From positions 33,478,309 to 33,542,308 of the forward strand of contig NC_023751.2 of the NCBI RefSeq assembly GCF_000499845.2: DNA of 64,000 nucleotides. The letters run 5' to 3'. How positions within the stretch are numbered: the stretch's first letter is position 1; each line of letters starts with the position of its first letter. The DNA comes from Phaseolus vulgaris (Eukaryota > Streptophyta > Magnoliopsida > Fabales > Fabaceae). Made by a program: the position numbers and the translations under genes. The notes under the pieces are model-generated. The model saw only the letters and a list, made by a program, of their open reading frames with translations. It was not told where the DNA came from and did no database searches. Positions 22,954-54,695 of this stretch are shown here, one piece after another.

Positions 22954-24027
22954 CATTTCCATGCAGATGGTGTGTTCATAGAACTGTCAGTTCACAATGG
23001 CAGCCACTGCTTCTTCGAGAATCCCATTTTCTGCTTCTTCCAGAACCCCATTTTCTGCTTCTTCTTCCTACTCGGCATTCCTTAAATGCACTGTCAGATC
23101 CACCATCCTTCTCCCTTACCCAACCCTCACCAAGCCCTCTCACGCTCACCCACTCGCAATCTCATTCTGCCACCCCAGGCCTCCGGCAGCTACACCATCT
23201 GCCTTGGTCGTGTCGCCCTCGGCCGCTGACCCCTTCCTCTCGCGGTTCGCGCCAGGCAAGATGCGCAAGGGCGCCGACATCCTCGTGGAGGCGCTGGAGC
23301 GGCACGGCGTCACCACCGTCTTCGCGTACCCCGGCGGCGCGTCGATGGAGATCCACCAGGCACTCACGCGTACCCTAGCCATTCGCAACGTGCTCCCACG
23401 CCACGAGCAGGGCGGCGTGTTCGCGGCTGAGGGCTACGCGTGGTCGACGGGGTTCCCCGGCGTGTGCATCTCCTCCTCCGGCCCCGGCGCCACAAATCTA
23501 GTGAGTAGCCTAGCGGACGCGATGATGGACAGCGTGCCGGTGGTGACCATCACTGGGCAGGTCCCGCGGAGAATGCTCGGTACCAACGCCTTCCAAGAAA
23601 TCCCCATCGTGGAAGTTACCAGTACCATCACCAAACACAACTACCTCATCCTCGACGTCGACGACATTCCTCGGGTCGTGAGCGAGGCCTTCTTCCTTGC
23701 CACTTCGGGCCGGCCTGGCCCAGTCCTGATCGACGTCCCCAAAGACGTTCAGGAGCAACTTGCAGTTCCTAGTTGGGACCTTCCGGTTATGCTCCCCGGG
23801 TACACCGCCAGGCTGCCCAAGCTCTCCAGCGAGGCCCAATTGGGACTGATTGCCAGACTCATATTGGAGGCCAAGAAACCTGTTTTGTACGTGGGAGGTG
23901 GCTCTTTGAACTCCAGCGCCGAGTTAAAGCAGTTTGTAGAACTCACTGGGATTCCCGTTGCCAGCACTTTGATGGGCCTCGAAACTTTTCCTATTGGCCA
24001 CGAGCATTCCCTTTAAATATGTTGGGG

Positions 24028-24032
24028 ATGCA
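24028..24032. repeat. 5-bp target duplication ATGCA (left) of the copia element in ALS
   Basis: ATGCA at 24028-24032 is repeated at 28459-28463, directly outside the two LTRs. Removing the element and one copy brings the two ALS halves together. Confidence 0.9.
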
Positions 24033-24298
24033 TCTTAATATATTTAATTTTCTATTTTAAATTATTGGGCTTTGTTTGTTTGATCCAACTTTCCTTTTTC
24101 TGTTTCAGCTAGGTTTTAATCTTTTTCTTATATATACACCATGTATTTTACTCTCTAGTATACAAGTGAATAAAAGTTTTTTTTATATTTATTTTTCTCT
24201 CTACAATTAGGGTTCATCAAAACCTCTCTTTCTTCATTACGATTACGTGCTACGCTATATTAAAGCATCACAAATATTCATCTTCATTTACTGTAATA
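24033..24298 (+). repeat. 5' LTR of the copia element in ALS
   Basis: Paired with 28172-28458. The last bases CTGTAATA are shared, and the primer-binding site starts at the next base. A 21-23-bp stretch near the end of the 3' copy (about 28400-28435) is shorter here, giving the length difference. Confidence 0.9.
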
Positions 24299-24310
24299 TG
24301 GTATCAGAGC
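24299..24310 (+). other. Primer-binding site of the copia element
   Basis: TGGTATCAGAGC directly after the 5' LTR is the usual initiator-methionine tRNA complement of plant copia elements. Confidence 0.9.
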
Positions 24311-24436
24311 TCTTCGAATGAAGAGTTCTACTGCGCTTCTCTCTGATTTTTATTTCCCTCTTTGTTGTTCTTGGTTATTCTTTTTTTTTTCTGTTCTCTT
24401 TCAAAATCTTGATTGGTTTTAAAAATCTTTTAGGCA

Positions 24437-27226
24437 ATGTTTAATGAAAACCCTAGTCTTCATAGTCTTAATAGTAGTCACACTATTACATGCAATTTTT
24501 GTGGTAAATATGGTCATACTGAGGCTGTTTGTTTTCACAAAGTGGGTTTTCCTGGTAATGTTAAAACCTCAAAGTTTTCTTTTACTAGAAAAGTCTGCAC
24601 TTTTTGTAATCGTCTTGGCCACACTGTTGACACCTGTTATAAAAAGCATGGGTTCCCTCCTGGCTACAAATTCACCAATTGGACATCCCAAGCCAATAAT
24701 ATGATTACTACTGACACTTTTTCTGAGCTTTTTCCTAAAGAACAGGATGTAAAGGGGATTCAACTTACATCACAACAGTGTCAATTCCTTACCAACATTT
24801 TGCGTCAGCAAAACCTTGAGGATCCTGCCTCTCACACTCAAATTAATCAAGTCGGCAGCATCTCTACGGATGAAATCCCCAATACTGAGCATTCTTCAAC
24901 AGGTAAGTTTCTCTCTTCACTATCTTCTATAAAAGAATCTTGGATTATTGATTCTGGTGCCACTGATCATGTTTGTCACAATTTGAACGTATTTACTACT
25001 TATACTAAAATTAAACCTGTCTTAATTAGTCTTCCAAATGGCCAAACTGTTTATGCCACATATTCTGGTTCAGTACGTTTTTCTGATCAGTTTTATTTGT
25101 CTGATGTGTTATACGTGCCTCATTTTCAATTAAACTTAATATCTGTTTCTAAACTCACACACCAACTTAAATGCACTTTAACTTTCACTTCAACCCACTG
25201 CATTATACAAGACAATCTCACTCAAGAGAGGATTGGTACAGTTAAAGCCACTGCTGGCTTGTATCTTGTCACTACCTTGCCTGCTTCTAGTCAATCTAAA
25301 CCGCATTGTTTTGCTCCTTTTATTAATTGTAATATCACAGACAAAACACTATGGCATTATAGACTAGGACACCCTTCACATGAAAGATTACATGTCTTAA
25401 GCAAACAATACTCTTTTATTACTGTTGATACTCATCATGTATGTGACACTTGTAGTCGTGCAAAACAGAGAAAACTTCCTTTCACTTTAAGTAATACTGT
25501 TACCTCTGCTATTTTTGATCTTGTACACTTTGATATTTGGGGACCATGTTCCATAATTTCTATGCAAGGTTTTCGTTATTTCTTGACTATTGTTGATGAT
25601 TACTCGCGTTATACTTGGGTTATTCTGTTGCATAACAAATCTGAAGTGCGTCAGCACATCATTAACTTCACTGTTTTCGTTCAAAATCATTTCAAAACTA
25701 ATATCAAAACGATTCGTACTGACAATGGTGTTGAGTTTGCTATGTCAAATTTTTATGCTTCAAAGGGAATTATACATAAAAAATCTTGTGTTGAAACACC
25801 ACAACAAAATGGCATTGTAGAACGTAAACATCAGCACATACTAAATGTAACCCGGGCTTTACTTTTTCAAGCAAATCTTCCTCCTATTTTTTGGGAATTT
25901 GCTGTAAATCATGTTGTTTTCTTAATAAATGCTATTCCTACTCCATTACTTGATAACATCACTCCTCATGAAAAGTTGTTTGGAAAACCATATGACATTT
26001 CCTTTCTAAAAGTGTTTGGTTGTCTTTGTTATGCTAGTACCATTACTGCACATAGGAAAAAATTAGATGATAGATCTATCAAAGGTATTTTTCTTGGCTT
26101 CCCGCAAAATACAAAAGGTTATATTATCTTAAATTTAAAGTTTCATAGCATAGAGATATCAAGACATGTAATCTTTCATGAAAACCACTTTCCATATAAA
26201 TTGGACAGTGGCTTGCCTAAGGACCCTAACACTTTATCTCTCCCTATTTCTAATGCATATAATTCTGCTTTTGATTTTTTTTCTGATACTGCACCTCCTG
26301 TCGAGCCATGTGCTTCTACTCCTGCACCCAATATTGTTCCTCCATCAGCCTCATTATCCTATGATCTTCCAACAAATAGTGCCTCTGCTCCTGCATCCAA
26401 CATTGCACCTCCATCAGAATTATCACCGCCTGCATCTCCAGAAAGCATCTCACCCCAATTTCCAAGAAGATCAGCTCGTCTTCACCGACAACCTGCCTAT
26501 CTTGCAGATTTCCACACTGCAACCAACACTGTAAGTAGTAGATATCCTATTCATAATTACTTGTCTTACAATTCCTTATCTTCCAATTTTAGAAATGTTA
26601 TTTCCTCTATCAATTCTCATCCTGAACCTCGGACATATAACGAAGCCTCCAAACATGCTTCTTGGCAATCTGCCATGCAAGATGAGCTTCAAGCTCTTGC
26701 TGCTAACAATACTTGGCAACTTACCCCTCTCCCTCCAGAAAAGAAAATTATTGGTTGTAAATGGGTATATAAAATCAAATACCATTCTGATGGCACTGTT
26801 GAGCGCCACAAAGCTAGAGTTGTTGCCAAAGGGTTTACCCAACTTGAAGGACTTGATTTCTTAGACACTTTTGCACCTGTTGCTAAACTCACTACCCTCC
26901 GCCTTCTGCTTGCTATTGCCACTACCAAAAATTGGATTTTAAAACAACTTGATGTCAATAATGCATTTCTTCATGGTGATCTCCATGAAGAGATATACAT
27001 GACCCCCCCACCTGGCCTCTCTCTTCCTTCTCCCCAGCATGTTTGCAAGCTTCAACGGTCTTTGTATGGCCTTCGTCAAGCTGGTCGCCAATGGTATGCC
27101 AAACTTTCTACTTTTCTTTTATCAACTAATTACTCTATTTTTGTTGCTGATCACTCTCTTTTTCTCTTAAATATAATAATGATAAACTCACTGTTATTCT
27201 TGTTTATGTTGATGACTTGCTCTTAA
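24437..27226 (+). pseudogene. Copia gag-pol fragment: zinc knuckles, protease, integrase, RT (N-terminal part)
   Basis: This 929-codon frame starts just before two CX2CX4HX4C knuckles (residues 19-32 and 54-67), so the capsid part of gag is lacking. Then come the protease motif DSGATDH (about residue 171), the integrase zinc finger (about 305-345), the integrase core with FDIWGP, RTDNG and the Glu in NGIVERKH (about 364-460), and reverse transcriptase (KWVYKIK at about 773, then YGLRQAGRQWY). The frame shifts shortly before the YVDD catalytic box (about 27205-27216 in another frame) and ends in a short missense tail. It cannot yield an active polyprotein. Confidence 0.93.
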
Positions 27227-27398
27227 CTGGTGATGACACGGAGGAAATCAATACAATTACTGCATCCCTTCACCATCACTTCAAGATAAAAAATTTAGGT
27301 AATCTCACTTACTTTTTGGGACTGGAAATTGCTCGCAACAGTACTAGTCTTCATTTAAGTTAACGCAAGTATACTCTTATCTCCTTCAAGAAACTGGC

Positions 27399-28166
27399 AT
27401 GCTTGACTCTGCACCTGTGGCCACTCCTATGACTCACACCTCCCGTCTCTCTCCCGACCAAGGCTCCCCTCTCGATGCTGATGCCACTTCTCAATACAGA
27501 AGACTTCTTGGACGTCTAATTTACTTAACCAACACGCGACCAGACATCGCCTTCGCTGTCCACAATTTAAGCCAATTCATATCTGCACCCACAACTCATC
27601 ATCAGCAAGCTGTCTCACGTCTTTTGCGTTACCTCAAGGGCACCCCTGGTGAAGGACTATATTTTTCTCACACTAGTTCACTTCACCTTTGTGGTTTTAG
27701 TGACTCTGACTGGGCAACATGTCCTACCACACGCAAATCTGTCACTGGATATTCCATCTACTTAGGAGACTCCCTAATATCATGGAAATCAAAGAAGCAG
27801 TCAACTATCTCCCACAGCTCCTCTGAAGCCGAGTATAGAGCCCTTGCCACCACCACATGTGAGTTACAATGGTTGTCTTACCTCCTTCAGGATTTACATC
27901 TTCCTCTCTCCCAGCCTGCAACCCTGTACTGTGACAACAAATCTGCCCTTCAAATAGCTTCCAATCAAGTTTTTCATGAACGAACCAAGCCTATCGAAAT
28001 TGATTGCCACCTAGTTCGTGAAAAACTTAACTCTTGTCTCCTCAAACTACTACCCATTACTTCTGCAATGCAAGTTGCTGACATATTCACCAAGCCCCTT
28101 GCTTCCGCACAATTCTCTACTCTCAAATCCAAGCTGGGCCTGACAAATATCTACTCCCCAGCTTGA
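27399..28166 (+). pseudogene. Copia pol C-terminal fragment: RT end and RNase H
   Basis: The 255-codon frame has the RT connection motif (YRRLLGRLIYLTNTRPDIAF) and RNase H signature (SDSDWATCPTTRKS, ISHSSSEAEYRA, CDNKSA) of copia elements. It is separated from the upstream frame by a stop at 27361-27363 and a single-base loss near 27375, and by the earlier frameshift before YVDD. It ends directly before the polypurine tract. Confidence 0.9.
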
Positions 28167-28171
28167 GGGCG

Positions 28172-28458
28172 TGTTAATATATTTAATTTTCTATTTTAAA
28201 TTATTGGGCTTTGTTTGTTTGACCCAACTTTCCTTTTTCTGTTTCAGCTAGGTCTTAATCTTTTTCTTATATATACACCATGTATTTTGCTCTCTAATAT
28301 ACAAGTGAATAAAAGTTTCTTTTATATTTATTTATTTTTCTCTCTACAATTAGGGTTCATCAAAACCTCTATTTCTTCATTACGATTACGTGCGATTACG
28401 TACGCTACATTAAAGCATCACATCAGACAAGGAATATTCATCTTCATTTACTGTAATA
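28172..28458 (+). repeat. 3' LTR of the copia element in ALS
   Basis: Partner of 24033-24298. Starts TGTTAATA and ends CTGTAATA, followed by the second ATGCA target copy and the ALS 3' half. The two LTRs end TA rather than the usual CA. Confidence 0.9.
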
Positions 28459-29421
28459 ATGCATGGTACTGTTTATGCCAACTATGCTCTTGATAAGAGT
28501 GATTTGTTGCTTGCATTTGGGGTAAGGTTTGACGACCGTGTCACGGGGAAGATCGAGGCTTTTGCTAGTAGGGCTAAGATTGTTCACATTGATATTGATT
28601 CCGATGAGCTTGGGAAGATTAAGCAGCCACACGTATCGGTTTGTGGAGATTTGAAGTTGGCATTGCAGGGGATTAATAGGATTTTGGAGGATATGGGGGT
28701 GAAGGGTAAGCTTGATCTTGGAGCTTGGAGAGAAGAAATTAATGTGCAGAAAGAAAAGTTTCCTTTGAGCTATAAAACGTTTGATGATGAGATTTCTCCT
28801 CAGTACGCAATTGAGGTTCTTGATGAGTTGACAAATGGGGATGCTATTATAACCACTGGGGTAGGGCAGCATCAGATGTGGGCTGCACAATTCTACAAGT
28901 ACAAGAGCCCTAGACAGTGGTTGACGTCAGGGGGTTTTGGAGCCATGGGTTTTGGATTGCCTGCGGCTATGGGTGCTGCTGTTGCCAACCCTGGTGCTGT
29001 GGTGGTTGACATTGATGGGGATGGGAGTTTCCTAATGAATGTTCAGGAGTTGGCCACTGTAAGAGTGGAGAATCTCCCTGTTAAGATATTGTTGTTGAAT
29101 AATCAGCACTTGGGTATGGCGGTTCAGTGGGAGGATCGGTTCTACAAGGGCAACAGAGGTCACAGCTATCTGGGAGATCCCTCTAGGGAGAATGAGATAT
29201 TCCCAAACATGCTAAAGTTTGCAGATGCTTGTGGGATACCCGCTGTGCGTGTGATGAAGAAGGAAGAGCTCAGAGCGGCAATTCAGAAAATGTTGGAGAC
29301 CCCTGGTCCTTATCTTCTTGATGTCATAGTTCCATATCCGGAACACGTGTTGCCCATGATTCCCACTAATGGATCCTTTGAGGATGTGATTACTGAGGGT
29401 GATGGTAGAACAAGGTACTGA

Positions 29422-37409: not shown

Positions 37410-38520
37410 GCCCATTCACACTTCATTGTTCATTTATCATATCATATATGCCTTCTTCTACCTCACTCCCCACTATTATTTCACACCCCCTCCCCACTCC
37501 TACTTTACGTGCCCAAATCTTCAACTCAAAGCACCTTTGCCAAAAACTTCAATCAAGGTTTAAGATATCTTCCTTCGTACATTTTTCTCATGGTTAGATT
37601 TTCATTATGAAAATTGAGATTTGAATTCATTTAGGATTTAGGGCTGATCTTTCATTAATTTTGTTTCTGATTTTTATTTTTTGAATTTGATTTTGAAATA
37701 TTTTGGTTGATTTATATGGCGATTAATAACATGTGAGTAGCATTTTGAGGATGGTCGAGAAAGTAGTTGATTATGACTAGTTTAGATTGTCAACATCCAA
37801 GAATAAAATAAAATTTATATTAAAAAAGAAAGTTAATTATTTTTTTTAAATAATAATGAAAGATGAGAAAAACAGAAATCCGTGAATAATAAAATTTTAT
37901 GTTTCAAGATATTTAAAAAAAAATTATGTTTACTTTTACTTTTAGTTTTCTTACTTATTTCTTTTTGTTGTAAAAAAATATAATTACATGTCACTAAATA
38001 TGTTTCTCGATCTATCCATGAGCTGAAACTTTTTATCTCTCAAGACAAAAAATTTAAAAAACAAAGATAACAAAAAAAACGTTTTTACTTTTCGTAGCGC
38101 CATTTCACTGTCTGCGCCCTTCTCTTTTCTTATTCTCTTTACTTTTCCACCCGCATTTCACTTTCCGCACTTCCCTCTCCTCTCACTAACTTTATTTTTC
38201 GCACCCCCATTTGTCCGCATCCCTCTCTTCTCTCCTTCATCTTTACTTTTTGTACGCGCATTTCACTCTCCTCACTCCCCCAATCCACACCCTCTTCGCT
38301 TCTCAGGACCCTCAACCCCACATTAACTCTCTCTTTCACATGTTCCTCTCTCTCTTCTCTTCTACAAGAACATAAGATGAGTAATGATACTTTGATATTC
38401 CAATATTTTTCTCTTTCATTCAACTTACAATTTCATTAATTATTATTTTCTTATAATATATTTTTTATATTTTTATTTTTATTATTATAATAGAATATTT
38501 TATTATAAAAAACAATTGTC
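37410..38520. repeat. Segment duplicated at 48.24-49.24 kb, with CGCA/CATTTCACT motifs
   Basis: Sequence from about 37410 to 38520 matches 48270-49240 in order with scattered changes. Near 38090-38300 are repeated motifs of the form CGCATTTCACT(n)CGCAC inside pyrimidine-rich runs (CTCTCTTCTC). A 94-codon minus-strand frame (38139-38423) and a 101-codon + frame in the other copy are composition effects. No gene called. Confidence 0.65.
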
Positions 38521-39136
38521 AAGTAATTTGGCTTAAGCTTAATTTTGGAAGAAAGTAATGCGAAGTAATACCACTTTTCTCATTTAGTTCTCGCATCATT
38601 CTTCTTTTTTTCTTGAAATGAAACACATGAGAAACTGATGATTTATCACAGGCGTTGCAGAATTTTCATATCTACATTTTTACTCCACCTCTGTTGATAA
38701 GTTTCTCCATGTAAGGATGCATTATTTTCTTTATTATTGTTGCTTGCATTGTCCAAATCTTTCCCAATTCCACTACCTGTGAAGTTGAATGTGAATTCTA
38801 GGTTGGGAATAATTAGGGATAAGTTGAATTTGTATGTGATTATTTTAAGTCTTGTCAACCTGGTGGTATTTTATTACTATTACTCTTAGTGGATTGAAAA
38901 ATTGGTCTTGGCATCAGTGTTTGTTTTAGAATTTATAATAAAGTTAAGAGAGGTTAGTCTGAAGCACATACTACCTTACTAAAAGTTACTATGAGCTTTA
39001 TCTTTCAAATGATTTTATTTCACTATGTTCTTGTGCATATTAGATGATGGCTCTTTCTTGTTAATATTTATTTTTTCATTTTACCTGTTGATCTTTTCTG
39101 TCTTGGTTAATGTTGTTATGATATTGCTTCTGTTTT
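38521..39136. other. Intergenic stretch
   Basis: No gene or bounded repeat recognised. Confidence 0.4.
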
Positions 39137-40785
39137 TAAATGTGTTGTGAGTGGTTTCTTTATCTTTGATTTTGTTTTAGTTAACTAGGTAATTCATTTA
39201 GAAGTGTTTGAGTTTGTTTGAAATGATAAGTTATATTTTAATGGATTAAAAAATGTGTTGTGATATATTAAAATATTTTTAGATTTGTTGAATTTGTAAG
39301 GACATTTTAATTGATTAAAAATACGCATTAATTGATTAAAAATACTTAAATAATTCACAATTTGATGATCTCATTGTTTTAATTGATTCAAAAAAATTAA
39401 TTAATTAAAATGACATTTTAATATATTAAAACAATTTAAAATTAATTTTAATTTGTTAAAAACTCATTTTAATGGATTAAAAATTTGGAGTAAGGCATCA
39501 ACTTCTATTTTAATGGATTAAAACATATTTTTAATATATTAAAATTGATAACTTTATATAAGAGTTATCTTAATCAATCTTTAATCAAATCAAATTAATT
39601 TGTAAAAATTTCTTAATAATTTCTAAACATTGAAAGTGGTGTTGATTGTAATAGGGTTTCACAAGTGGTAGTAGAAGATCTTGAGGAATTTATGTAAAAA
39701 TTGAAAATATAATGAATTGATTTATTTAATTAGAGTAATTAGACAATTAGATGTAACTCTTGGGAGTGAACAAGTATAAATATTGACGTTATTTTCTTAT
39801 CATGTATTTTGTATTGATATATTGTTTACTATTTATATTTCCATAAGTAAAATAATCATAAATATTGTATTTCAAATATTTGTAAAACTTATCTTACAAC
39901 TCTTCTTATCAAGGATGAGTTGGAGTCGTCTAATGTGAATGTCAGAACTAAGTGAATAAATTGACTTCTTCGAGAAGAGTTGTCGAGTTTTATGATTCAA
40001 AATCGAATGGTGATCCATATGTAAAAACTCTCTGATGCTCAAGTTAGTAAGAATTATAAAATAATTGAATAAAAATAAATAAATAATAATCACTAGTAAA
40101 AGATACTCCCTAAGATTATATTTAAGCATATAAAATATCTGAAGTTAGCAAAATGTACTACATGAATTTTTTCATGTGAATTAGTTATTTTTCAGTATGA
40201 ACGAGATATATAGTAACTACCGTTGAGATAATTAATATCTATGATTTCATGGTCAATAAATGTTCCATACCTTTCGGTACTAGGTACTACAACAATCTTG
40301 ATTAATTTGATTTAATAAAGTTTAATAATCTTTTATGAAATATTTTGATTGTTTAATTAACCTTCTTCCTTCAACTTAGTCCATATTTCTAACAACAGTA
40401 TGCAGATAACTAAATAACTAAAGAACTACAATTCTAAAATCTAACTGAACGTTGTAATACTAACCTTAAAAAATTAAATATATATAAATGTAAATAACAA
40501 AATAAAAAAAAATAAAAACATAATTTGAAGAAGAGAAGAAAAGGTGCCTTTTTTCACGTGAGTAGTGCATAGTGACATGGACAAAATGGTGGCGATGGCA
40601 GAGAGAGAATGGGAATGAAAAGGGAAGAGCAACTTCAAGCCCAGAAAGAATAGAACCGAAATGATGACACAGTTGGAGGAGGAGTGACACATTTTGCAGC
40701 AAAATTAAGAGATACAATGAGAGTTCCTATTAATAATCGTTCATCTTCATTTGATAATTGTCATAGTTTCCTCGTAGGAAGATAG
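39137..40785. repeat. Segment duplicated at 59.88-61.69 kb
   Basis: Sequence from about 39137 to 40200 and 40670 to 40785 matches 59878-61600 and onward. This copy has about 450 bp (about 40220-40675) that the other lacks. The other copy has a LINE insertion (60881-61404) at the place equivalent to about 40062, so this copy shows the empty site. The A+T-rich content includes repeated ATTTTAATGGATTAAAA-like motifs. No gene recognised; the minus-strand frame 40466-40717 is not supported. Confidence 0.75.
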
Positions 40786-42093
40786 GTCTTTAGGTTTAGG
40801 TTTTGTAAGAAGAAAGAGATAGAGAGAAGGAAGAATTGTAGGGCAAAGATGAGGTCCACATTAGGAAAGTGGCAATGTCGTTGATAGCAAGCACATGAGG
40901 TGCCAACCATTGGGTTTGGGGACCACAAATATACATACACAACACACTATTTTGCTTCCGTTCTCAATGGCTTTGGCTTAAGTACAAACCCCACCTTCCA
41001 TGCAACCCAATTACAAGAAACATGCAGCACAATACAAATATGGCAATTTGTTTCTAAATAAAAAAACACCATCATAATTTAAAAACCCCTTTTCTTTCTT
41101 GTAAGCTCCCAGCGGCCCCACTTCCATCACCTCCTAAAACTCATTCTTCTTAGCCTATTATAGAGGAAAGAAAAGTGACCACTCACCGCTGTAGAATAAT
41201 GCTATAGGAACCTAGAGAAATACCACGTGCCTTCACAAAAAAGAAGCCAGCACAGATACATCTTTTGAAAAGCAGAAAAAGAACAGAGAGAAACGAATAT
41301 CCAGTATCTATTATTCTCTTAAATGATGCTTATGCTGCTTCCAGAATATCATTTACTTCTCTGTATACCAAGTAAAACCGCACTGCTTCCTTCCAAAAAC
41401 TCTTATACTAGAACCTTCGTCATTTCTTCCTACCATTCTGCTTCCTTAAGTCTGCATATACTCACCACAGGGAACACTTTGATTTTCCTGACATCACCTA
41501 CTACTTATGCCCCCATCCAGCCCTCCACCCCCGATAAAAACTAGCAAATTACACCTCCTTATAATAAGATCCTTTGCTTCCCCTCATTCCCTGCAAAAAA
41601 AAAAAACAAACACCAGTTTTGTCGCTTCGTATCCTCAAAGATATGCTGAAGCGTATTGTCCTGCCCTGCAGAACCTCTGTTTTACTCAAAATTTTGGTCC
41701 CTTGTCCATAGTATCCCTTCATCAGCACGACTACAACTCACTGCCATCCTCTAACCTCTCCTAGTTAGCCCCGGTATCGTGTACATGACGTGAAGTTGCC
41801 ACTTCTCAGCAACATCCCCCACCTCAGCAGCTTAGCTTTTTCTTTCGGTTTGGGTGGGTGGGGACTACCAAAGCTTCCATTTAATGCATCAATACCACTA
41901 AAGCCTTCCATTCAAAAAGGGAACCACAACCATCATATGCTGCATCTATATATCTGTGTAAGTATATTTGTGTGTTTTAGAGTGAAAGAACCATCTAAAT
42001 TATAAATAATATTTGACATGGGTTGACACACTTTTGCTCTTGAACTTGGTTGAGGTTTTCTAGTCCAAAGAGATGTGTGAGGATGGATTTAGT
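40786..42093. other. Unassigned stretch upstream of the ALS/PME chimera
   Basis: Less A+T-rich than its surroundings, with a C-rich part at about 41100-41900. Two short overlapping frames (41323-41544 and 41507-41764) have no recognised family. Because it lies directly upstream of the hairpin-forming locus it is a candidate promoter region; CTATATATC near 41950 could serve as a TATA box. That is inference only. Confidence 0.35.
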
Positions 42094-42543
42094 TTTACGT
42101 TACCTCCACTCTCAAATCCGAGCTCAACAATGTGAAGAGTGTGTTTCCTCTTTCTGATGCCATTTTCGCATGTCTCGAGTTGTTGGACTTGTCAGCTGAT
42201 GAACTCAGCTGGTCCATTTCTGCAGTTGAAAGTCCCCAAGGTATCATTTTATCTCAAGGTTCTATAAAACCAAACAAATTCTCCATGATTCTCTCATATA
42301 TAATATCATTTATGTTACTTAGAATAAAGGGTATACGTATGTACATAATATTTGTGGCATGGCAAGGAAGCATAACAGGACTGGGAATCTGAGCTCTGAT
42401 TTGAGCACATGGCTAAGTGCTGTACTTGCGAACACAGACACGTGCATGGAAGGTTTAGAAGGTACAAGTGAGAGTGTGAAGGATTTGATATCAATGAAAT
42501 TAAGGAATCGACATGGTTGCTCCAAAAGCTGGTGAACCAAATT
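42094..42543 (+). pseudogene. Truncated pectin methylesterase fragment
   Basis: Nearly identical to 51160-51600 of the intact PME: the end of exon 1 (from TTACCTCCACTCTCAAATCC to the CCCCAAG|GT donor), intron 1 and the start of exon 2. The acceptor region has CAAGG in place of CAGGG, and one base is lost in exon 2 (GATATCAATG against GATATCCAATG). It begins without the signal peptide and stops abruptly where it is joined to an antisense ALS fragment. It has no catalytic domain. Confidence 0.9.
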
Positions 42544-42893
42544 GTCAACCACCACAGCACCAGGGTTGGCAACAGCAGCACCCATAGCCGCAGGCAATCC
42601 AAAACCCATGGCTCCAAAACCCCTTGACGTCAACCACTGTCTAGGCCTCTTGTACTTGTAGAATTGCGCAGCCCACATCTGATGCTGCCCTACCCCAGTA
42701 GTAATAATAGCATCCCCATTTCTCCATTCATCAAGAACCTCAATTGCGTACTGAGGAGAAATCCCATCATCAAACGTCTTATAGCTCAAAGGAAACTTTT
42801 CTTTCTGCACATTAATCTCTTTTCTCCAAGCTCCAAGATCAAGCTTAACCTTCACCCCATATCCTCCAAAATCCTATTAATTCCCTGCAATGC
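42544..42893 (-). pseudogene. Antisense ALS fragment (left arm of inverted repeat)
   Basis: Read on the minus strand it matches ALS codons from GINRILED to GAVVVD, i.e. the stretch at about 28662-29013 of the split ALS gene. One base is lost near the start (ATGGGGTG for ATGGGGGTG), so the frame is not clean. It joins the PME fragment at TTGT|CAACC with a few shared bases, and joins the sense ALS fragment at a shared GC. It pairs with 42982-43332. Confidence 0.93.
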
Positions 42894-43332
42894 TAAGATG
42901 ATTGTTTACATTGATATTGATTCCGCTGAGCTTGGGAAGATTAAGCAGCCACACGTATCGGTTTGTGGAGATTTGAAGTTGGCATTGCAGGGGATTAATA
43001 GGATTTTGGAGGACATGGAGGTGAAGGGTAAGCTTGATCTTGGAGCTTGGAGAGAAGAGATTAATGTGCAGAAAGAAAAGTTTCCTTTGAGTTATAAGAC
43101 GTTTGATGATGAGATTTCTCCTCAGTACGCAATTGAGGTTCTTGATGAGTTGACAAATGGGGATGCTATTATAACCGCTGGGGTAGGGCAGCATCAGATG
43201 TGGGCTGCGCAATTCTACAAGTACAAGAGGCCTAGACAGTGGTTGACGTCAGGGGGTTTTGGAGCCATGGGTTTTGGATTGCCTGCTGCTATGGGTGCTG
43301 CTGTTGCCAACCCTGGTGCTGTGGTGGTTGAC
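42544..43332. repeat. ALS inverted repeat: about 350-bp arms, 88-nt loop
   Basis: The left arm is 42544-42893 and the right arm is 42982-43332. Arms of 350 and 351 bp differ at roughly a dozen places by eye. A transcript across it would fold into a long, almost continuous double-stranded stem. Confidence 0.93.
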
Positions 43333-43396
43333 ATTGATGGGGATGGGAGTTTCATAATGAATGTTCAGGAATTGGCCCTGTAAGAGTGGAGAATGT
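42894..43396 (+). pseudogene. Sense ALS fragment (loop and right arm of inverted repeat)
   Basis: From 42894 the sense ALS sequence runs from the KIVHIDIDS region (with an extra codon) to the GDGSF...NVQEL region, then a one-base loss (GGCCCTG for GGCCACTG) shifts the frame. Homology stops near 43396. The part 42982-43332 is the complement of 42544-42893. The preceding 88 nt (42894-42981) are ALS sequence without a partner and form the loop. It matches the split ALS gene and the left arm at about 95% or better by eye. It cannot encode an enzyme. Confidence 0.93.
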
Positions 43397-43455
43397 CGTA
43401 AATAATTTAAGAGTTTATCATTCACTTTAGAATTTGGTCATTTTGTTTTTATCTC
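43397..43455. other. PME 3' flank left of the copia insertion
   Basis: The sequence ending TTGTTTTTATCTCATC matches the PME 3' flank near 53090-53110 (TTGTTTTTGTCTCATC). The match continues at 45927 on the other side of the copia element, which shows that the element went into an existing chimera. Confidence 0.6.
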
Positions 43456-43460
43456 ATCAC

Positions 43461-43740
43461 TGTTAGCATTAAACTAAAAGTCTTCAGCCGTCATCAGTTT
43501 TATTTTAGCATCTGAATAGACAATAATTATTATCTTTAATTCTAGTGTTGAAAGTCATTTATACTATGATTTAAATGTAAATTATAGTATAGGTTTTATG
43601 AGAGAGAAGGTAGAATTTGAGAAGTCTATTGTAAGACTATTTAGAGAGATTGTATTCTTATTTGAAAAATAACAGTGAAATAAAATATATATTTTCTGTT
43701 CACAAATATCTTGCTCTGTTTTATTCCCTCAACACCAACA
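43461..43740 (+). repeat. 5' LTR of the 2.46-kb copia element
   Basis: 280 bp. It differs from the 3' LTR at three places near its start (AAACTAAAAGTCTTCAG against AAACTCAAAGCCTTCGG) and at one near position 43650. Confidence 0.93.
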
Positions 43741-43794
43741 ATTGGTATCGGAGCTATTTTCTTGAGGGATCTGTAAGGTTAGTAAAGTGCACCA

Positions 43795-45612
43795 ATGGAA
43801 GGAGGATCAAATTTTTCAGCAATGGCACCACCTGTCTTTGATGGAGACAGTTATCAAATGTGGGCTGTTCGTATGGAGACCTATCTAGAAGCATTGGATT
43901 TATGGGAAGCTGTAGAAGAGGACTATGAAATTCAGTCCCTTCCAGAAAACCCTACGGTGGCACAAATAAAATCACAGAAAGATAAAAAGATGAAGAGATC
44001 AAAGGCAAAAGCATGCCTATTTGCAGCTGTATCTCCTATGGTATTCACAAGGATAATGTCCTTGAAGTCAGCAAAAGAAATCTGGGATTACCTCAAGGCA
44101 GAATATGAAGGTGATGAAAGGATTCGGGGAATGCAAGCCCTGAATCTAATCAGAGAGTTTGAATTGCAGAAAATGAAGGAGTCGGAATCCATAAAAGAGT
44201 ACTCAGACAGACTTCTAACCATTGCCAACAAAGTGAGGTTGCTGGGATCTGTGTTTAAAGATTCAAGAATTGTGGAAAAACTGTTTGTAACAGTTCCAGA
44301 GAGGTTTGAAGCCACCATAACAACCCTGGAGAACACAAAGGACCTATCAAAGATTTCTCTTGCAGAGCTCTTAAATGCTTTACAAGCACAAGAACAAAGG
44401 AGAGCCATGAGACAAGATGGAGCAATAGAAGGAGCCTTACTAGTCAAACATGAAGGTGGCTGGAGAAACAAAGGTAGAAATTATCCTCCTTGTAAGCATT
44501 GCAACAAGTTAGGTCATCCACCGTTTAAGTGTTGGAGAAGACCTGATGCTAAGTGCAACAAGTGCAATCAACTTGGGCATGAAGCAATTATTTGTAGAAA
44601 CCAAAGTGAACAACAAGATGTAGATGCTCAAATTGCAAATGAGGAGGAGGATGTGCTTTTCGTTGCAACTGGTTTTTGCAGCAATATTTCAAGTGCATCT
44701 TGGTTAATTGACAGTGGCTGCACCAACCACATGACACATGACAAGGAACTCTTCAAGGAATTGAGAACTACTGATGTTAAAAGGGTGAGGATTGGAAATG
44801 GTGAACACCTGGCAGTAAAAGGAAAAGGCACAATAGCTATCACAAGCTATAAAAGTATAAAAATCATTACAGATGTTCTTTTTGTGCCAGAGATTGATCA
44901 AAACCTTTTGAGTGTTGGTCAATTGTTGGAAAAAGGCTATAAGGCGATGTTTGAAAATAAACATTGTTTAATCAAAGATGTTGATGGCAGAGATTTGTTT
45001 AAAGTTGAAATGAAGGGAAAAAGTTTGGCTCTCAATCCAATGGAGGAGGAGCACATTGCCTTTAAATCCAAAGAAAATGTCACAGAAATTTATGTACCTG
45101 ACTTGAAGAATAATATTCTCAGTATGGGAAAATTATTGGAGAGTGTTGAAGCAAAATTTGATAACTTGGAAAAAAGATTTACAAAATTGGAAGAAAAATA
45201 TGTTGATATGGAGAAAGACAAGGAAAGTAGAGTCAATCAAGTTGAAGAACTCCATTTGTTGCTTTTGACACAAAAAGAAAAGGTGAATGAATTACAATTC
45301 AAATTAAAAGCCCCTTTTGGTTCATGTGTTTTACTTGAAAATAATGGTTTTGACTTAGGAGAAGACCATAAATGGAATGGTGTTGAGACATCATCTGAAA
45401 GAGAAATATGGTATAATCATTATCTTCGAAGCTCATTGAAGTCAAAGTCTTTCTTAAATCCTTTTAATTCAAAGGGTGAAAGTGGAGAAGATTTTGTTTG
45501 GAAAATTAAAAGTAATTCAATTCAAAATTCTGCACGGATTGATGCAGTGAAGGAAAATATTGGAGGCAGTGTGAGCGATGACAATCAGAAAAGCAACAAT
45601 CTGAATGAATAA
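43795..45612 (+). CDS. Copia gag-protease with unusual coiled-coil tail
   Basis: The 605-codon frame starts with the DUF4219-like gag N-terminus (residues about 7-35, YQMWAVRMETYLEA), then a UBN2-type gag region, then two CX2CX4HX4C knuckles (about residues 233-265) and a protease motif (WLIDSGCTNHM, about residue 305). The expected pol domains are absent. After the post-protease motif VPEIDQNLLSVGQLLEKGYK a second related motif appears (YVPDLKNNILSMGKLLE, about 433), then a heptad-like helix (about 455-500; EKRFTKLEEKYVDMEKDKES), then an acidic/Ser-rich tail. The helix resembles coiled coils of plant NET/KIP1-type actin-binding proteins; that is recall-based and unverified. The whole frame is intact. 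Copy-specific transcription cannot be judged. Confidence 0.85.
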   Translation: MEGGSNFSAMAPPVFDGDSYQMWAVRMETYLEALDLWEAVEEDYEIQSLPENPTVAQIKSQKDKKMKRSKAKACLFAAVSPMVFTRIMSLKSAKEIWDYLKAEYEGDERIRGMQALNLIREFELQKMKESESIKEYSDRLLTIANKVRLLGSVFKDSRIVEKLFVTVPERFEATITTLENTKDLSKISLAELLNALQAQEQRRAMRQDGAIEGALLVKHEGGWRNKGRNYPPCKHCNKLGHPPFKCWRRPDAKCNKCNQLGHEAIICRNQSEQQDVDAQIANEEEDVLFVATGFCSNISSASWLIDSGCTNHMTHDKELFKELRTTDVKRVRIGNGEHLAVKGKGTIAITSYKSIKIITDVLFVPEIDQNLLSVGQLLEKGYKAMFENKHCLIKDVDGRDLFKVEMKGKSLALNPMEEEHIAFKSKENVTEIYVPDLKNNILSMGKLLESVEAKFDNLEKRFTKLEEKYVDMEKDKESRVNQVEELHLLLLTQKEKVNELQFKLKAPFGSCVLLENNGFDLGEDHKWNGVETSSEREIWYNHYLRSSLKSKSFLNPFNSKGESGEDFVWKIKSNSIQNSARIDAVKENIGGSVSDDNQKSNNLNE

Positions 45613-45641
45613 TATGAAAGGTTTGAGTTTAAGGGGGAATT

Positions 45642-45921
45642 TGTTAGCATTAAACTCAAAGCCTTCGGCCGTCATCAGTTTTATTTTAGCATCTGAATAG
45701 ACAATAATTATTATCTTTAATTCTAGTGTTGAAAGTCATTTATACTATGATTTAAATGTAAATTATAGTATAGGTTTTATGAGAGAGAAGGTAGAATTTG
45801 AGAAGTCTATTGTAAGACTATTTAGAGAGATTCTATTCTTATTTGAAAAATAACAGTGAAATAAAATATATATTTTCTGTTCACAAATATCTTGCTCTGT
45901 TTTATTCCCTCAACACCAACA
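45642..45921 (+). repeat. 3' LTR of the 2.46-kb copia element
   Basis: Partner of 43461-43740. Directly preceded by a purine-rich tract and followed by the ATCAC target copy. Confidence 0.93.
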
Positions 45922-45926
45922 ATCAC

Positions 45927-46352
45927 CAAAAGGTTGTAATTCAAAACGTTGTACTTCCATATTTTTTTTCTTTTTTTGTCGTATTAGTTATCATCTTTCA
46001 ATGTTAAAGTTAGCATACAACTGAAAAAGAGAAAGTAAGAGGCACATGTTATGTTTTTTTTTTATCAAAGAATAAAATATCCCAACCCTTATACATGATT
46101 CAGAGACCACTTTAGTGTCATATGTTAGCAACAAATCATAAGCAATCAAAATAAAAGCTGTTTACTGCATAAAATGCATAAAAGCTGCACCAACTGTGCT
46201 ATAAGACTTTCGACCTGCATCTTCTGGATTGGCCAACTCCTGCACACCAAAAATCTCCAAAATTCTAGAACAAGTAAGAGGCACATGTAAAATGGAATAA
46301 TGATTTGTCAAATGGTAGGAAAATAAGAGTGAAACTAATTGATAAAAAAACA

Positions 46353-46355
<3 letters not shown>
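45927..46355. other. PME 3' flank copy
   Basis: The sequence around CTTCCATA...TTTTTGTCGTATTAGTTATCATCTTTCAATG and GAGTGAAACTAATTGATAAAAAAAC matches 53110-53313, the 3' flank of the intact PME, and is interrupted by a short LINE tail (46050-46271). The order confirms that this is the downstream end of the truncated PME copy. Confidence 0.8.
46050..46271 (-). mobile_element. Short LINE 3' tail with 17-bp target duplication
   Basis: The 222-bp insertion lies between copies of AAGTAAGAGGCACATGT (46033-46049 and 46272-46288). It has a poly(A) run on the minus strand (T-run at about 46053-46062), and the adjacent 3' sequence (TTGGGATATTTTATTCTTTGATAAAAA on minus) resembles the LINE at 5079-6349. 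The matching PME flank at about 53196-53215 has a single uninterrupted copy of this target. It holds a small C-terminal peptide only. Confidence 0.85.

Positions 46356-46400
<45 letters not shown>
46351..46400. repeat. (AT)n microsatellite at a junction
   Basis: A TA run of about 48 bp that separates PME 3' flank from ALS 3' flank. The ALS flank has its own TA run at 29829-29852 at the matching place, so the switch occurred in or next to the microsatellite. Confidence 0.9.
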
Positions 46401-46401
<1 letters not shown>

Positions 46402-46403
46402 GA

Positions 46404-47019
46404 AAAAAAATGATGTTTTTCTTTTACTAGAATTAGTTTAGATTCATATTAAAAAATATATAATCTACTATTAATGTTTAATTTTAAAATAAATTTAAGT
46501 AAACAAGATAAAAATGGTAATACTCATACTTGAACCTTTAACTCAATATTTAAAGGATAAAATTAATTGCCGAGACATATCATGTTTGTTGAATTAATTT
46601 AATTTATTAAAATAAATTATATTATCTAATTGTGTAACTTAAATTTAAAATAATTATTTGATTAAAAAATATTTTTAATTAAGAAAAAATATTTAAAATT
46701 AAAAAAATATATTTATATATAATAGAAAAATAAGAATATTTTGAATTAATATTTTTAAGAAACACATAAGAAAACTAATTTGGCCAAATTGTAAATATTA
46801 TTGTACTATATCATATATCATCTTCGGATAATTGTCTAGGAGTTAGACGATTTTCTTTAGTACCATCGAAGCCTTTTGCATTATTTATTCAAGAATGATC
46901 AATTGGCAAAAGTTGACGATTTTTCATATAACAAATTTTTTTTTCATTTGGTAAACTTAAGGATCGTGTATTTCTATTATAATAAGGATATGCAATTTTT
47001 TATTTAATACTCCATCCTA

Positions 47020-47055
<36 letters not shown>

Positions 47056-48064
47056 TATGATGCATGTAATATTAAAATGAAAACAACAACAATCTTTCTT
47101 GTAACATCGCTATATTTTCTAGTAACCATAATCTGTATGAAATATTAAAATAAATATATAAACATAATACAAATATGTTTACAACTCTTTCATATAACGT
47201 TTCAAAACATATCTCTCTTCATAAGACTTTAAATATTTACATAAAATTAAAACAAATATTCAAAATAAAATAAAATATTTTTATCATCCAGCTCCTCTCA
47301 CCGAGGAGTTATATCACCGGTAACATCATCTGCTCTCGTGTAAATACATGATCATCACAGATTAAAGAAAACAACAACAAAATAAAACAAATGGTAAGCT
47401 AGCTATTTTTAAAACTTATAATATAAATATAACTTTAAACATCCACATAAAGGCAACAATTCTCATGCATTTCACACAACCATCAAGTGTCTATCAAAAT
47501 TCACAATTCATCTTTCTCATGTCAGACTTCTACTGACTCACAACACATAGACACTTGACTCTACTTCTGGAAGACTCGTGTATTGAAATTAGAATCCTGA
47601 GACATTCACCTGTCATACTACTCGCTATGAATCCACACAACCATGTGCATAAACATCTTAATATCTCATCATCTCGTATGACAAGGTAAATTCATATGAC
47701 TTGAAATACCTGTTTATATTTCAAACCGCAAACAAAGTCATATGAACCTTCATCGACTCTCACCAATTGAATAACTTCGTCTATGTGATTCCATTATATC
47801 ACTAAAATCAAGATCGTCTCATTGGATCGGGACCTGACAGATCAATACACCCTAATAACAGTTTCAACACGGTATTTCCTTTTCTGAAAATACTATGTTT
47901 TTATCACACTTTTGCATCCTTGCACACTTCATTTAAGACATCAATACACCATTTAAATCACAATATATTTTAAACTTTCTAAACAATCCAAATATATCTC
48001 AAAATTCATTAAAACACATAACTAAGTTCCTTTAATCATATTTTTAAATAAAAATTAGAATTTT
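46404..48064. repeat. Copy of the ALS 3' flank and part of the long LTR
   Basis: It matches about 29858-31545: A+T-rich ALS flank up to about 47040, then from TGTAACATC (47100) about 960 bp of the LTR family at 30569-32624. The LTR is cut off near 48064, before the palindrome block. A TA run of about 35 bp near 47020-47053 is longer than in the other copy. Confidence 0.85.
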
Positions 48065-50990: not shown

Positions 50991-52729
50991 ATGGCTGTTT
51001 TCTGGACAAAACAGCCAGCTCCTATTCCATCTGCTACATTCATCTTCATCTTCTTCTTCTTTGCTCCCTGTGATTTGGCGATACTCCATAACCTGAAAGT
51101 TTCTCCTTCCGAATTCTTAGGCTCCGTGAGAAAAGTAGGTGATGTTTTGCAAAACGTTACCTCCACTCTCAAATCCGAGTTCAACAATGTGAAGAGTGTG
51201 TTTCCTCTTTCTGATGCCATTTTCGCATGTCTGGAGTTGTTGGACTTGTCAGCTGATGAACTCAGCTGGTCTATTTCCGCAGTTGAAAGTCCCCAAGGTA
51301 TCATCTTTATCTCAAGGTTCTATAAAACCAAACAAATTCTCCATGAGTCTCTCATATATAATCTCATTTATGTTACTTAGAATAAAAGGTATACGTATGT
51401 ACATAATATTTGTGGCATGGCAGGGAAGCATAACAGTACTGGGAATCTGAGCTCTGATTTGAGCACATGGCTAAGTGCTGTACTTGCGAACACAGACACG
51501 TGCATGGAAGGTTTTGATGGTACAAGTGAAAGTGTGAAGGATTTGATATCCAATGAAATTAAGGAAGTGACGTGGTATCTCCAAAAGCTGGTGAACCAGA
51601 TTGTTTGGGATTATTTCAGAAGGGACAAAGTTCCTTCATGGGTTGAACCACTGCTGCAGAGAAAAACGATGCCTGCGGATGCTGTAGTTGCTGCTGATGG
51701 GAGTGGTGATTTTACTAGGGTGATGGATGCTGTGAATGCAGCTCCTGAGTATAGCATGAGACACTTTGTGATACACATAAAGAAGGGTTTGTACACTGAG
51801 AAAGTTGAGATTAAAAAGAACAAGTGGAACCTTGTGATGATTGGAGAGGGTATGGATGCTACTGTTATCTCCGGTAACCTCAGCCGTACTGAAAATTTAA
51901 CCACATTCAGAACAGCTACCTTTGGTAAGGAAACTTCATGATAATACTAACAACTAAAAAGTAATTTGTCTGCTTCACTTGCTGAAATTTCGGGTTTGAT
52001 TCTAATTCTTTTACCTTCTTTTATGGTGAAGCTGTGAATGGGAGAGGATTCATAGCAACAGCCATTTCCTTCAAGAACACTGCAGGACCCGAAAGAAACC
52101 AAGCTGTTGCACTGAGATCAGATTCTGATCTCTCTGTGTTCCACCGATGTGGGATTTTTGGCTACCAAGACACCCTCTATGCTCACTCCTTGCGCCAATT
52201 TTACAGAGAATGCAAAATAAGTGGCACTGTGGATTTCATATTTGGACATGCCAGTGCAGTGTTCCAGAACTGCACAATACTGGTAAAAAAGGGCTTACAA
52301 GGACAGAAGAACACAATCACAGCTCAAGGAGAAACGTGCCCTTCTCAGTCATCTGGCTTCTCCATCCAATTCTCCAACATTTCAGCAGACTATGACCTTC
52401 TGCCCTCAGTTAACAGCACCTCAACGTACCTTGGGAGGCCGTGGAAGAAATATTCTAGAGCAGTTTTCATGCAGTCTTACATGAGTGAGGTGTTAAGGCC
52501 AGAAGGGTGGCTCGAGTGGAATGGATCATTGTATTTGGACACTTTGTACTTTGGAGAGTACAAGAATTATGGACCAGGAGCTAGGGTTGATAAGAGAGTG
52601 AAGTGGCCAGGGTACCATGTCATAAATGATTCTAGCCAGGTTTATAACTTCACTGTTGCCAATCTCCTTTTGGGGGATCTTTGGATACCTTCAACTGGTG
52701 TAACATACACTCCTGGATTTGGAGTCTGA
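50991..52729 (+). CDS. Pectin methylesterase with inhibitor-like pro-domain (type I), three exons
   Basis: Exons 50991-51297, 51424-51924 and 52032-52729 join in frame to give 501 residues, paralogous to 15491-19236 with the same exon phases. A hydrophobic stretch (residues about 15-28) suggests secretion, and a PMEI-like region follows. Catalytic-domain residues are Q293, Q315, D316 (GYQDTLY), D337 (GTVDFIFG), R405 and W407 (LGRPW). The pro-region to mature junction reads [11 protein letters not shown], without the usual basic motif just before LLQ. An in-frame ATG 15 bp upstream (50976) is an alternative start, but the one at 50991 gives a cleaner signal-like N-terminus. Introns are short (126 and 107 bp). 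The gene appears intact. Confidence 0.95.
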
Positions 52730-54312
52730 AACACTACTCCTACACTTTGCCTGTGTTCATAACTTGCTAAAGTGATTATGTAGATTAAAGATATGAACAA
52801 TAATTATTATAAAATAACTGCAGAAATTATAGCTTTGTCTTACTTTATCTGTTGGTGCCTAATTCCTAAATATTATCTACGAATGACTTTTTTATACACA
52901 TTTTTTAGAAGAGAATACAGGAAGATTTGATGAAGTAATATTTTTTTAGAAACCAAAACTAACTATGAAGGTAAGTTAGTGTTAGAAATTCAATTAGAAC
53001 CTTATTTAATAGGATTGAAACATATGTGAAATGCTCAATTTTTTATTATTTTTTCTGATAAAAAAATTTAACTTGAGAATTATATTGTGCTTTTGTTTTT
53101 GTCTCATCATCAAAGAGGTGTACTTCCATATACTTTCCTTTTTTTGTCACATTAGTCATCATGTTTCAATGTTAAGCTAATATACAACTTAAAAGAGAAA
53201 GTAAGAAGCACAGGTAATAAAATGGAAGGGTATTAATTAATTGCCACTTTATAATTGGTAGTGACAAAAGGTAGGAGTAAGAGTGAAACTAATTGATAAA
53301 AAAACACAGCATATATGTCATTTTGTGTTGTTAAGAGGTCAAGCAATTTAAGAGAAAAAAAACAAAGGCAAAGGTCAAGATCAAAGAATGATCACAAGCT
53401 TCAAACTAAATAACCAGTGCAGCTATGACAATTGATAAGTTTTGTTGCTTAGTTGCCATGGACAAGGACTTGTTGGAACCAGGCTCTAATGCCCCCATTG
53501 GTGGGTGAAGGGTCTTGGTCAGTTATAATTGATAAACCATTGAAGTTGCATCCATATCTGCTTTAATCTGTCACTTGTTGGCAACACAAATGAAGTAAGT
53601 TTTGGTCCTATTACCCAATTAGTGCACTCCCTTGAAGTCCCACGCAATCTTTAAGCTATATATCCCTTCTTCCTCTTGTTATCAATTCTAGCAAAGAAAA
53701 GAGCAAGTATTTTAATTTGCATTATTGAAAATTAATAACACCGATAATAATTATTTGATCAAGTATTTATCATCATATAAAAATTATAATTTATAATTAT
53801 TTTTTTCTACTTAATAACATAACAACCAATATAAATTTGTTTATTATGGATCAACCTCACTTATTTTTACTATATGAACATTAATGAAATTTGAAACAAA
53901 AGTCAGTTTCTTTAAGTACTTTGTCCCTTCGGCTTACTCGAGTTTTTTTTCCTATTTTCCAAGTAAAGTTGACATCATAGTTTGTCATGAGTATAATCAT
54001 GACAAGGGCATGGAAGATATAATTTGGAGGGAAACAAGAAAGAACAAGTGGCTATAGATTCAAAGGCAAATCAATCCAAGAAACACTACAAGAATTCCGT
54101 AGGTAAGGTAACAGCTAAAATCTAGGAGTAAGTAATTCAAAATACTTTATTTTTTAAATTTTAATTATTATTTGAATCTTTTATTTATTTATTTTCAATT
54201 ATTATAATTAAAGTTAGAACTAAACTCCAGCAACAGGTGAAACTCAAAGCTAAGTCCCTTGAAGAATGTCCAAAGAAGCTTTAACCATTACACCAGTCAA
54301 GTTTTATTGTCA
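52730..54312. other. 3' flank of the second PME and intergenic sequence
   Basis: The first part (to about 53315) is the parent of the flank copied at 45927-46355. No further gene recognised. Confidence 0.5.
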
Positions 54313-54315
54313 TGT

Positions 54316-54695
54316 CACTACAAGAAAATTATGAAATAGAAACCAAATTTTAGATACCAAAATAATTAGTTGCAATAGTAACTAAATTAGAGACCATTTT
54401 AAAAACTAAAAAAAATTGGTTTCTAAACTAGTTTCTATTATTGTTAAATAGTTTCTAAATTGGTATCTAATTAACAATCAAGATTTTTGCTACCAAATTT
54501 AGAAACTAAATTATTGGTAGTTAAAACTTTGGTTGCTAATTAGATACCAATTTAGAAACTATTTAACAATAATAGAAACTAATTTAGAAACCATTTTTTT
54601 TTTAGTTTCTAAAATGATCTTTAATTTAGTTACTATTGTAACTAATTATTTTGGTCTCTAAAAATTGGTTTCTATTTGATGATTTTCTTGTAGTG
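54316..54695. mobile_element. Foldback MITE with CACTA ends and TGT target duplication
   Basis: It starts CACTACAAGAAAAT and ends ATTTTCTTGTAGTG, flanked by TGT at 54313-54315 and 54696-54698 (3-bp duplication, as in CACTA elements). Both arms are reverse complements over nearly the whole 380 bp: TAGATACCAAAATAATTAGTT and its complement lie at matching places. No coding capacity. Confidence 0.85.

Follow-up and report, generated by a model that had tools for sequence, protein, structure and literature searches.

A long inverted repeat of ALS fragments in common bean, probably a decayed patchwork of copies from neighbouring genes

Results

We analysed a window of 64,000 nucleotides of Phaseolus vulgaris DNA (contig NC_023751.2, positions 33,478,309 to 33,542,308 of the forward strand; coordinates below are those of the window), which contains an acetolactate synthase pseudogene (ALS1), PME-related sequences, LTR retrotransposons and an inverted repeat of ALS sequence that sits between two PME-derived stretches (Table 1).

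Table 1. Features at and around the ALS inverted repeat (window coordinates)
Feature	Position	Strand	Remarks
ALS1 pseudogene	22997..29421	+	ALS of the window closest to the arms, which stem from its lineage; from ORFs, lesions and Pfam
PME fragment	42097..42545	+	Part of exon 1, intron 1 (42241-42365), part of exon 2
Left arm, reversed ALS fragment	42543..42896	-	Corresponds to ALS1 28657-29011; 1-nt deletion (frameshift)
Loop	42897..42978	.	Made up largely of the 5' portion of the right ALS fragment, with about 3 additional nt at the junction
Right ALS fragment	42900..43397	+	Corresponds to ALS1 28578-29076; part 42979-43333 pairs with the left arm
PME-like 3' flank, first part	43421..43460	+	Resumes at 45929-46052 and 46306-46360 after the retrotransposon
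Gag-only Copia-type LTR element	43461..45923	+	LTRs 43461-43742 and 45642-45923; target-site duplication ATCAC
PME2, paralogue matching the PME fragment	51154..52729	+	Coding sequence starts upstream of 51154

Within-window alignment delimited two arms of ALS sequence, 354 and 355 bp long, bearing out the original prediction of an inverted repeat of about 350 bp. The arms differ from each other by 15 mismatches in 354 aligned sites and one 1-nt gap; an ungapped search returned a block of 314 nt at 96% complementarity (42543-42856/43020-43333) and a second of 40 nt at 93% (42857-42896/42979-43018), which the gapped alignment merges through that gap. The two fragments are joined by a loop, as had been described, although it measures 82 nt rather than 88. 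The close match of the arms to the ALS gene of the same window was likewise recovered: identity to ALS1 is 97.0% over 499 columns for the right piece and 95.5% over 355 columns for the reversed left arm (E 3e-163), in both cases within the 3' half of the gene. Both ALS pieces are frameshifted, the right one by a 1-nt deletion near its 3' end. The structure thus has the properties of a natural gene-derived long inverted repeat, namely gene sequence, a length of hundreds of bp and near-complementarity.

A transcript of the region could form a long double-stranded RNA, as anticipated. As RNA, 42543-43397 (855 nt) is predicted to fold into a long stem, the MFE being -702 kcal/mol; a strong predicted fold is, however, to be expected for any such repeat and is not evidence of use. 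Perfect matches in the right piece were found for 132 of the 334 distinct left-arm 21-mers, 85 of which also occur in ALS1, and 249 of the 478 21-mers of the right piece have a perfect match in ALS1. A 233-aa protein record (P0121), corresponding to 42682-43380, starts antisense in the left arm and runs into the right piece; it is a gene model read across the hairpin join.

ALS1 itself is interrupted. Pfam places TPP_enzyme N, M and C domains in its ORFs at 22997-24016 and 28459-29421, and all 320 residues of the 3' ORF are covered by PDB chains of plant acetolactate synthase (best 60 of 139 matches). Just before the break, a TAA stop is present, and comparison with the SLQMLGMHG motif conserved in relatives reveals a 2-nt insertion. 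It is split by a Copia LTR retrotransposon, whose LTRs (24035-24298 and 28174-28458) show 7 mismatches in 264 sites and which is flanked by a 5-nt target duplication, ATGCA, read by eye. Together, the stop codon, the insertion and the retrotransposon indicate that ALS1 is dead. Among the candidates scored (7,999, sharing most words), the joined ALS1 protein is best matched by V7AYC7 of P. vulgaris (651 residues), in which the first 320 and the last 320 residues are identical to the window. This record crosses the split by way of 11 residues ([11 protein letters not shown]) encoded at the end of the 5' LTR (24266-24298), a stretch at which the 3' LTR in the window differs by an insertion; V7AYC7 may therefore represent another allele or a solo LTR. 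For annotation, both records are a warning, in that V7AYC7 bridges a pseudogene split by a retrotransposon and the 233-aa record crosses the join of a hairpin.

To the left of the hairpin lies a 449-bp scrap of PME sequence, 95.6% identical to PME2 51154-51604. It begins within exon 1, so that the PME2 start codon and signal-peptide region, as placed by alignment and translation, are not included. The original prediction had given this fragment its own donor and acceptor sites. The fragment and its donor (GTATCA at 42241) are present, whereas the acceptor has been lost through a change of AG to AA (CAG in the PME2 frame, here CAA, at a position inferred from the PME2 translation). The next AG lies 1 nt beyond the old acceptor, so that its use would shift the frame, and the exon 2 part has a 1-nt deletion. 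The location downstream of a broken PME gene was also correct with respect to the scrap, which lies upstream, but incomplete, in that a PME-like 3' flank follows the hairpin as well. With the LTR element at 43461-45923 skipped, this flank matches PME2 53068-53218 (E 1.4e-25) and 53262-53316 (E 4e-13), and its alignment score of 160 compares with a maximum of 91 in a control on random segments of the window (up to 200, excluding any close to one of the two loci). Since the PME-like flank resumes 3' of the hairpin, the ALS pieces occupy the place of about 1.46 kb of expected PME.

Sequence before the scrap has no match to the upstream sequence of PME1 or PME2 at E 1e-4, and 41500-42097 aligned to PME2 upstream with a score of 28, equal to the random-segment median of 28. 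A PME promoter as driver of the hairpin is thus rejected: the scrap starts inside exon 1 and, by comparison with PME2, has neither start codon nor promoter. The interval directly ahead of it (40782-42096) is richer in GC (~37-44%), has no match elsewhere in the window at E 1e-4 and contains 32 stop-to-stop frames of at least 35 aa, the longest inside it being 90 aa; it is the nearest candidate place for a plus-strand promoter.

On the other side, the LTRs of the Copia-type element differ at 4 of 282 sites. Its 605-aa ORF has Pfam matches to gag, DUF4219 and Pol_BBD and none to RT or integrase. The element is young and non-autonomous and appears to have inserted later than the patchwork of PME and ALS pieces, and we take it to be TR-GAG-like. 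Two further long inverted repeats were noted in the 64 kb, so that such structures are not unique in the window. One (21273-21890/22312-22904), with identity in 538 of 629 columns, stops 92 nt short of the ALS1 start codon; the other (54316-54695) is a nearly perfect palindrome with 171 of 190 columns identical around a 3-nt centre, possibly a foldback or MITE element. Dispersed duplications (blast, 69-89%) also lie near the PME and ALS copies, at 29825-31545/46371-48064, 37389-38452/48259-49206 and 39160-40068/59974-60878.

The lineage of the arms was examined in a comparison of 159 residues with six full-length ALS proteins, from Phaseolus coccineus (P0002), P. vulgaris (P0033), Vigna (P0003 and P0042), Sphenostylis (P0004) and soybean (P0006). 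ALS1 and the right piece have L11, I14, T92 and F120 in common, against all six full-length proteins; the left arm covers T92 and F120 and shares both with ALS1. The arms therefore carry residues of the ALS1 lineage that are absent from the six full-length proteins, which indicates that the hairpin is built from the pseudogene lineage and not from working genes; derivation from a functional ALS is rejected at the protein level. The right piece differs from the full-length P. coccineus protein (P0002) at 14 of 159 residues and from the P. vulgaris AHAS C9E7B6 (P0033) at 27 of 159. Seven-residue windows are identical in 88 of 153 and 56 of 153 cases, respectively, and these protein-level counts are an upper bound on in-frame perfect 21-nt matches to working genes.

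Residue 71 is G in the left arm, in P0002-P0004 and in P0005, and E in ALS1, the right piece and P0122, an ALS1-like JGI record on a 1,654-bp contig that was aligned but left out of the dating; R is found in P0163, an ALS1-like record from P. coccineus. E recurs in the more distant P0033 and P0042, and A occurs in P0006, which shows that this residue can change in parallel. This single site is no more than a hint that the two arms were copied from different templates or at different times. P0163 is a truncated model that contains [18 protein letters not shown] in two copies, one of which precedes MLGMHG; ALS sequence seems to have undergone rearrangement in scarlet runner bean as well.

Three adjoining blocks match different neighbours at similar divergence (2.9-4.4%), their donors, taken as the best matches within the window, lying 8-14 kb away. 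K2P distances are 0.041 for the PME scrap against PME2 (449 sites), 0.044 for the left arm against ALS1 (354 sites), 0.029 for the right piece against ALS1 (498 sites) and 0.044 between the arms. The PME-like 3' flank (0.175) and the duplicated segment D/D' (0.069) are further apart, and the LTR pairs stand at 0.014 in the neighbouring element and 0.027 in the ALS1 element. Assuming a neutral substitution rate in plants of 6.5e-9 to 1.3e-8 per site per year, the arms would have separated about 1.7-3.4 million years ago, and the neighbouring element would have an age of about 0.6-1.1 million years.

Differences are fewer in the PME scrap than in the 3' flank (18/449 against 23/148; Fisher p 1.4e-5), and the contrast persists for the intron of the scrap alone (4/125; p 8e-4). 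The scrap accordingly looks younger than the flank duplication, after which it seems to have arrived, a reading tempered by constraint on the donor exons: because flanks evolve faster than exons, it is chiefly the 125 intron sites that carry the contrast.

Of the private changes in the 354 columns shared by both arms and ALS1, 11 belong to the left arm, 4 to the right arm and 4 to ALS1. The left arm thus differs from the right arm at 15 columns and from ALS1 at 15, and the right arm differs from ALS1 at 8 (4 private to each). The excess of left over right changes (11 against 4) is not significant (p 0.12). The left arm being no closer to the right arm than to ALS1, pairing has not been visibly preserved. 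Maintained pairing, which would be expected of a selected locus and is not required of a young one, left no sign in these columns, a weak negative given the small numbers. A maintained silencing role is thus not borne out by arms that, on these small counts, drift independently.

Discussion

Collectively, these results suggest that the hairpin is a non-functional genomic patchwork of copies of neighbouring genes that has since decayed, a reading to which we assign a probability of roughly two in three. Presumably, a stretch with a PME-like 3' flank was hit by a break and took up, in one event or a few, copies made at the DNA level from genes nearby: a segment of PME2 including an intron, followed by one reversed and one forward fragment of the ALS1 lineage, each abutting the next. 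Retention of the intron shows that the PME scrap is not a retrocopy. Microhomology at the joins would have been slight or absent, in the manner of plant double-strand-break repair using copied filler DNA; as read by eye, the overlap is TGT at the PME/ALS join and GC at the turn (GCYAA with one mismatch allowed), where about 3 extra nt are also present, and overlaps of 2-3 nt are little above chance. The gag-only Copia element would then have inserted alongside, and the pieces would have decayed as neutral sequence. The repair mechanism, the order of these events and the lack of function are what we infer, whereas the anatomy, the best-matching donors in the window, the divergences, the broken source gene and the missing start of the PME piece are observed.

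Filler DNA copied from sites near the break has been described in maize, according to the excerpted text of PMC2686159. The filler at maize p2/p1 resembles the bean locus in being a mosaic copied from nearby, next to a deletion, which links formerly separate genes (PMC2686159, in excerpt). The scale differs, and this is a caveat to reading the bean blocks as filler: the excerpt gives 1-131 bp for maize filler and 50 bp for p2/p1, far exceeded by the ~1.3 kb in three blocks in bean, where the mechanism is inferred.

Compatible with a patchwork origin, and tentatively worth considering, is a present-day role of the locus as a weak source of 24-nt (RdDM) or sporadic siRNAs, which would mark the locus and ALS1 as heterochromatic and leave working ALS genes unaffected. 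Inverted repeats and fresh LTR elements commonly attract small RNAs. Here, an LTR element with few mismatches between its LTRs begins 63 nt past the end of the ALS match, and about half of the right-piece 21-mers are perfectly shared with ALS1, which fits such marking.

A different history is suggested by the order of the pieces. PME, ALS and segment D follow one another in the same order and orientation at PME1 (16192), ALS1 (22997) and D (29825), and this caveat to the patchwork could instead mean that a PME-ALS unit was duplicated and then suffered a deletion. The locus would then be the remnant of a tandem unit in which the deletion fused the PME copy to the ALS copy, with the left arm a fold-back copy of the right. 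We consider this doubtful. Between the ALS pieces and D' lies the PME-like 3' flank, whereas the interval separating the end of ALS1 from D (29060-29860) yielded no such flank at E 1e-4. A fold-back copy should, moreover, be nearest to the right arm, yet the left arm is equally distant from the right arm and from ALS1, and the right arm is closer to ALS1 than to the left. The difference counts thus disfavour a fold-back origin of the left arm, with the caution that the rate test is not significant.

The original prediction was that the hairpin, if expressed, could produce siRNAs against functional ALS genes. Under this reading, a long hairpin RNA would be cut by DCL2 and DCL4 into 21-22-nt siRNAs, and functional ALS mRNAs would be lowered. 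DCL4 and 21-nt siRNAs take a share in hairpin processing, and siRNAs tolerate some mismatches, so that imperfect matches to working ALS genes are compatible with silencing. DCL2 makes 22-nt siRNAs from hairpins (PMC11390486 and PMC9009170, both in excerpt). The long, stable predicted stem and the 21-mers shared between the arms and with ALS1 are in keeping with such a locus, as are the comparable soybean 621-bp aquaporin NIP6-1 repeat (PMC3534067, in excerpt) and maize Tpd1 hairpin (PMC11390486, in excerpt). Nevertheless, the PME scrap brings neither promoter nor start, the source lineage is that of a dead gene, the arms side with ALS1 at residues 92 and 120 against all six full-length proteins, the right piece departs from P0002 and C9E7B6 to the extent given above, and maintained pairing left no sign. 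An expressed silencing locus of this kind is accordingly improbable. In particular, functional ALS as the natural target is not supported, with both arms of the ALS1 pseudogene lineage and the best-matching gene of the window dead. Any read-through transcript, whichever its direction, would form a stem of about 350 bp and feed Dicer-like enzymes, and the best-matched RNA for its siRNAs would be that of dead ALS1.

An active hairpin is possible but unlikely, and its most far-reaching form would be a young RNAi gene of common bean, built through break repair from two fragments of a dead ALS, transcribed from unrelated upstream sequence, and producing siRNAs that tune a branched-chain amino-acid enzyme in some tissue, e.g., pollen or seed coat. 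We regard this form as very improbable.

Capture of the gene fragments by a DNA transposon, either a Pack-MULE or a Helitron, would account for several joined fragments, one of them retaining an intron, but is highly improbable. Besides the arms, the interval 40400-43460 has one inverted pair, of 26 nt at 73%, and 38000-48000 has three AT-rich inverted pairs (40-56 nt, 71-80%), none of these at the ends of the patchwork; no short repeat is shared, by eye, at 42097 and 43397. Neither terminal inverted repeats with a target-site duplication nor Helitron ends were found, the duplication and the Helitron ends having been sought by eye only, and in the absence of element ends capture was rejected. 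Inverted repeats being classic places of misassembly, an assembly artefact was also weighed and is barely conceivable, as the arms differ by 4%, each with private changes (a protein record identical to the join-crossing ORF exists, but it is listed as belonging to the window itself, in a cluster of 2 members, and is not independent).

Gene-derived silencing hairpins are already known in soybean and maize, and an active bean hairpin would join them. At the soybean I locus, chalcone synthase inverted repeats give rise to DCL2-dependent 22-nt siRNAs (Jia et al. 2020, as cited in the excerpt of PMC9009170). As in bean, inverted copies of a metabolic gene lie in one locus of a legume; unlike in bean, CHS genes are involved and, in the excerpted account, siRNAs and a seed-coat phenotype accompany them, whereas the bean pieces are short, frameshifted and of a pseudogene lineage. 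On soybean Gm14, a 621-bp inverted repeat with similarity to aquaporin NIP6-1 is accompanied by matching siRNAs (PMC3534067, in excerpt). It shares with the bean hairpin its nature as a legume gene-fragment repeat, its order of size and a match to a gene elsewhere, but differs in having siRNAs in all tissues examined, according to the excerpt, and a spacer of ~1,000 nt against 82. Maize Tpd1 (Teosinte Pollen Drive) produces abundant 22-nt hp-siRNAs with a demonstrated target, whereas the W22 copy, interrupted by two transposons, makes no small RNA (PMC11390486, in excerpt). Tpd1 and the bean locus are both long natural inverted repeats associated with transposon insertion, although in bean the transposon lies beside the repeat and not inside it. 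Among the literature matches listed, whose titles and abstract openings were covered, there was no report of an ALS inverted repeat in bean.

Inverted duplication of a piece of a target gene is also the proposed starting point of MIRNA genes, the typical stem of which is far shorter than the arms of the bean hairpin. The inverted gene piece is alike in the two cases; the bean locus differs in its far longer arms and in the lack of curated miRNAs or structured RNAs, with 0 Rfam matches at gathering scores in the 64,000 bases.

ALS is a herbicide target, and if the hairpin is expressed, it would tie ALS to a natural source of RNAi in a crop. If it is silent, it would be a readable relic of the way in which inverted gene fragments arise in plant genomes, with both best-matching donors still within 15 kb. 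Hairpin siRNA loci, and perhaps MIRNA genes, take such fragments as their starting material.
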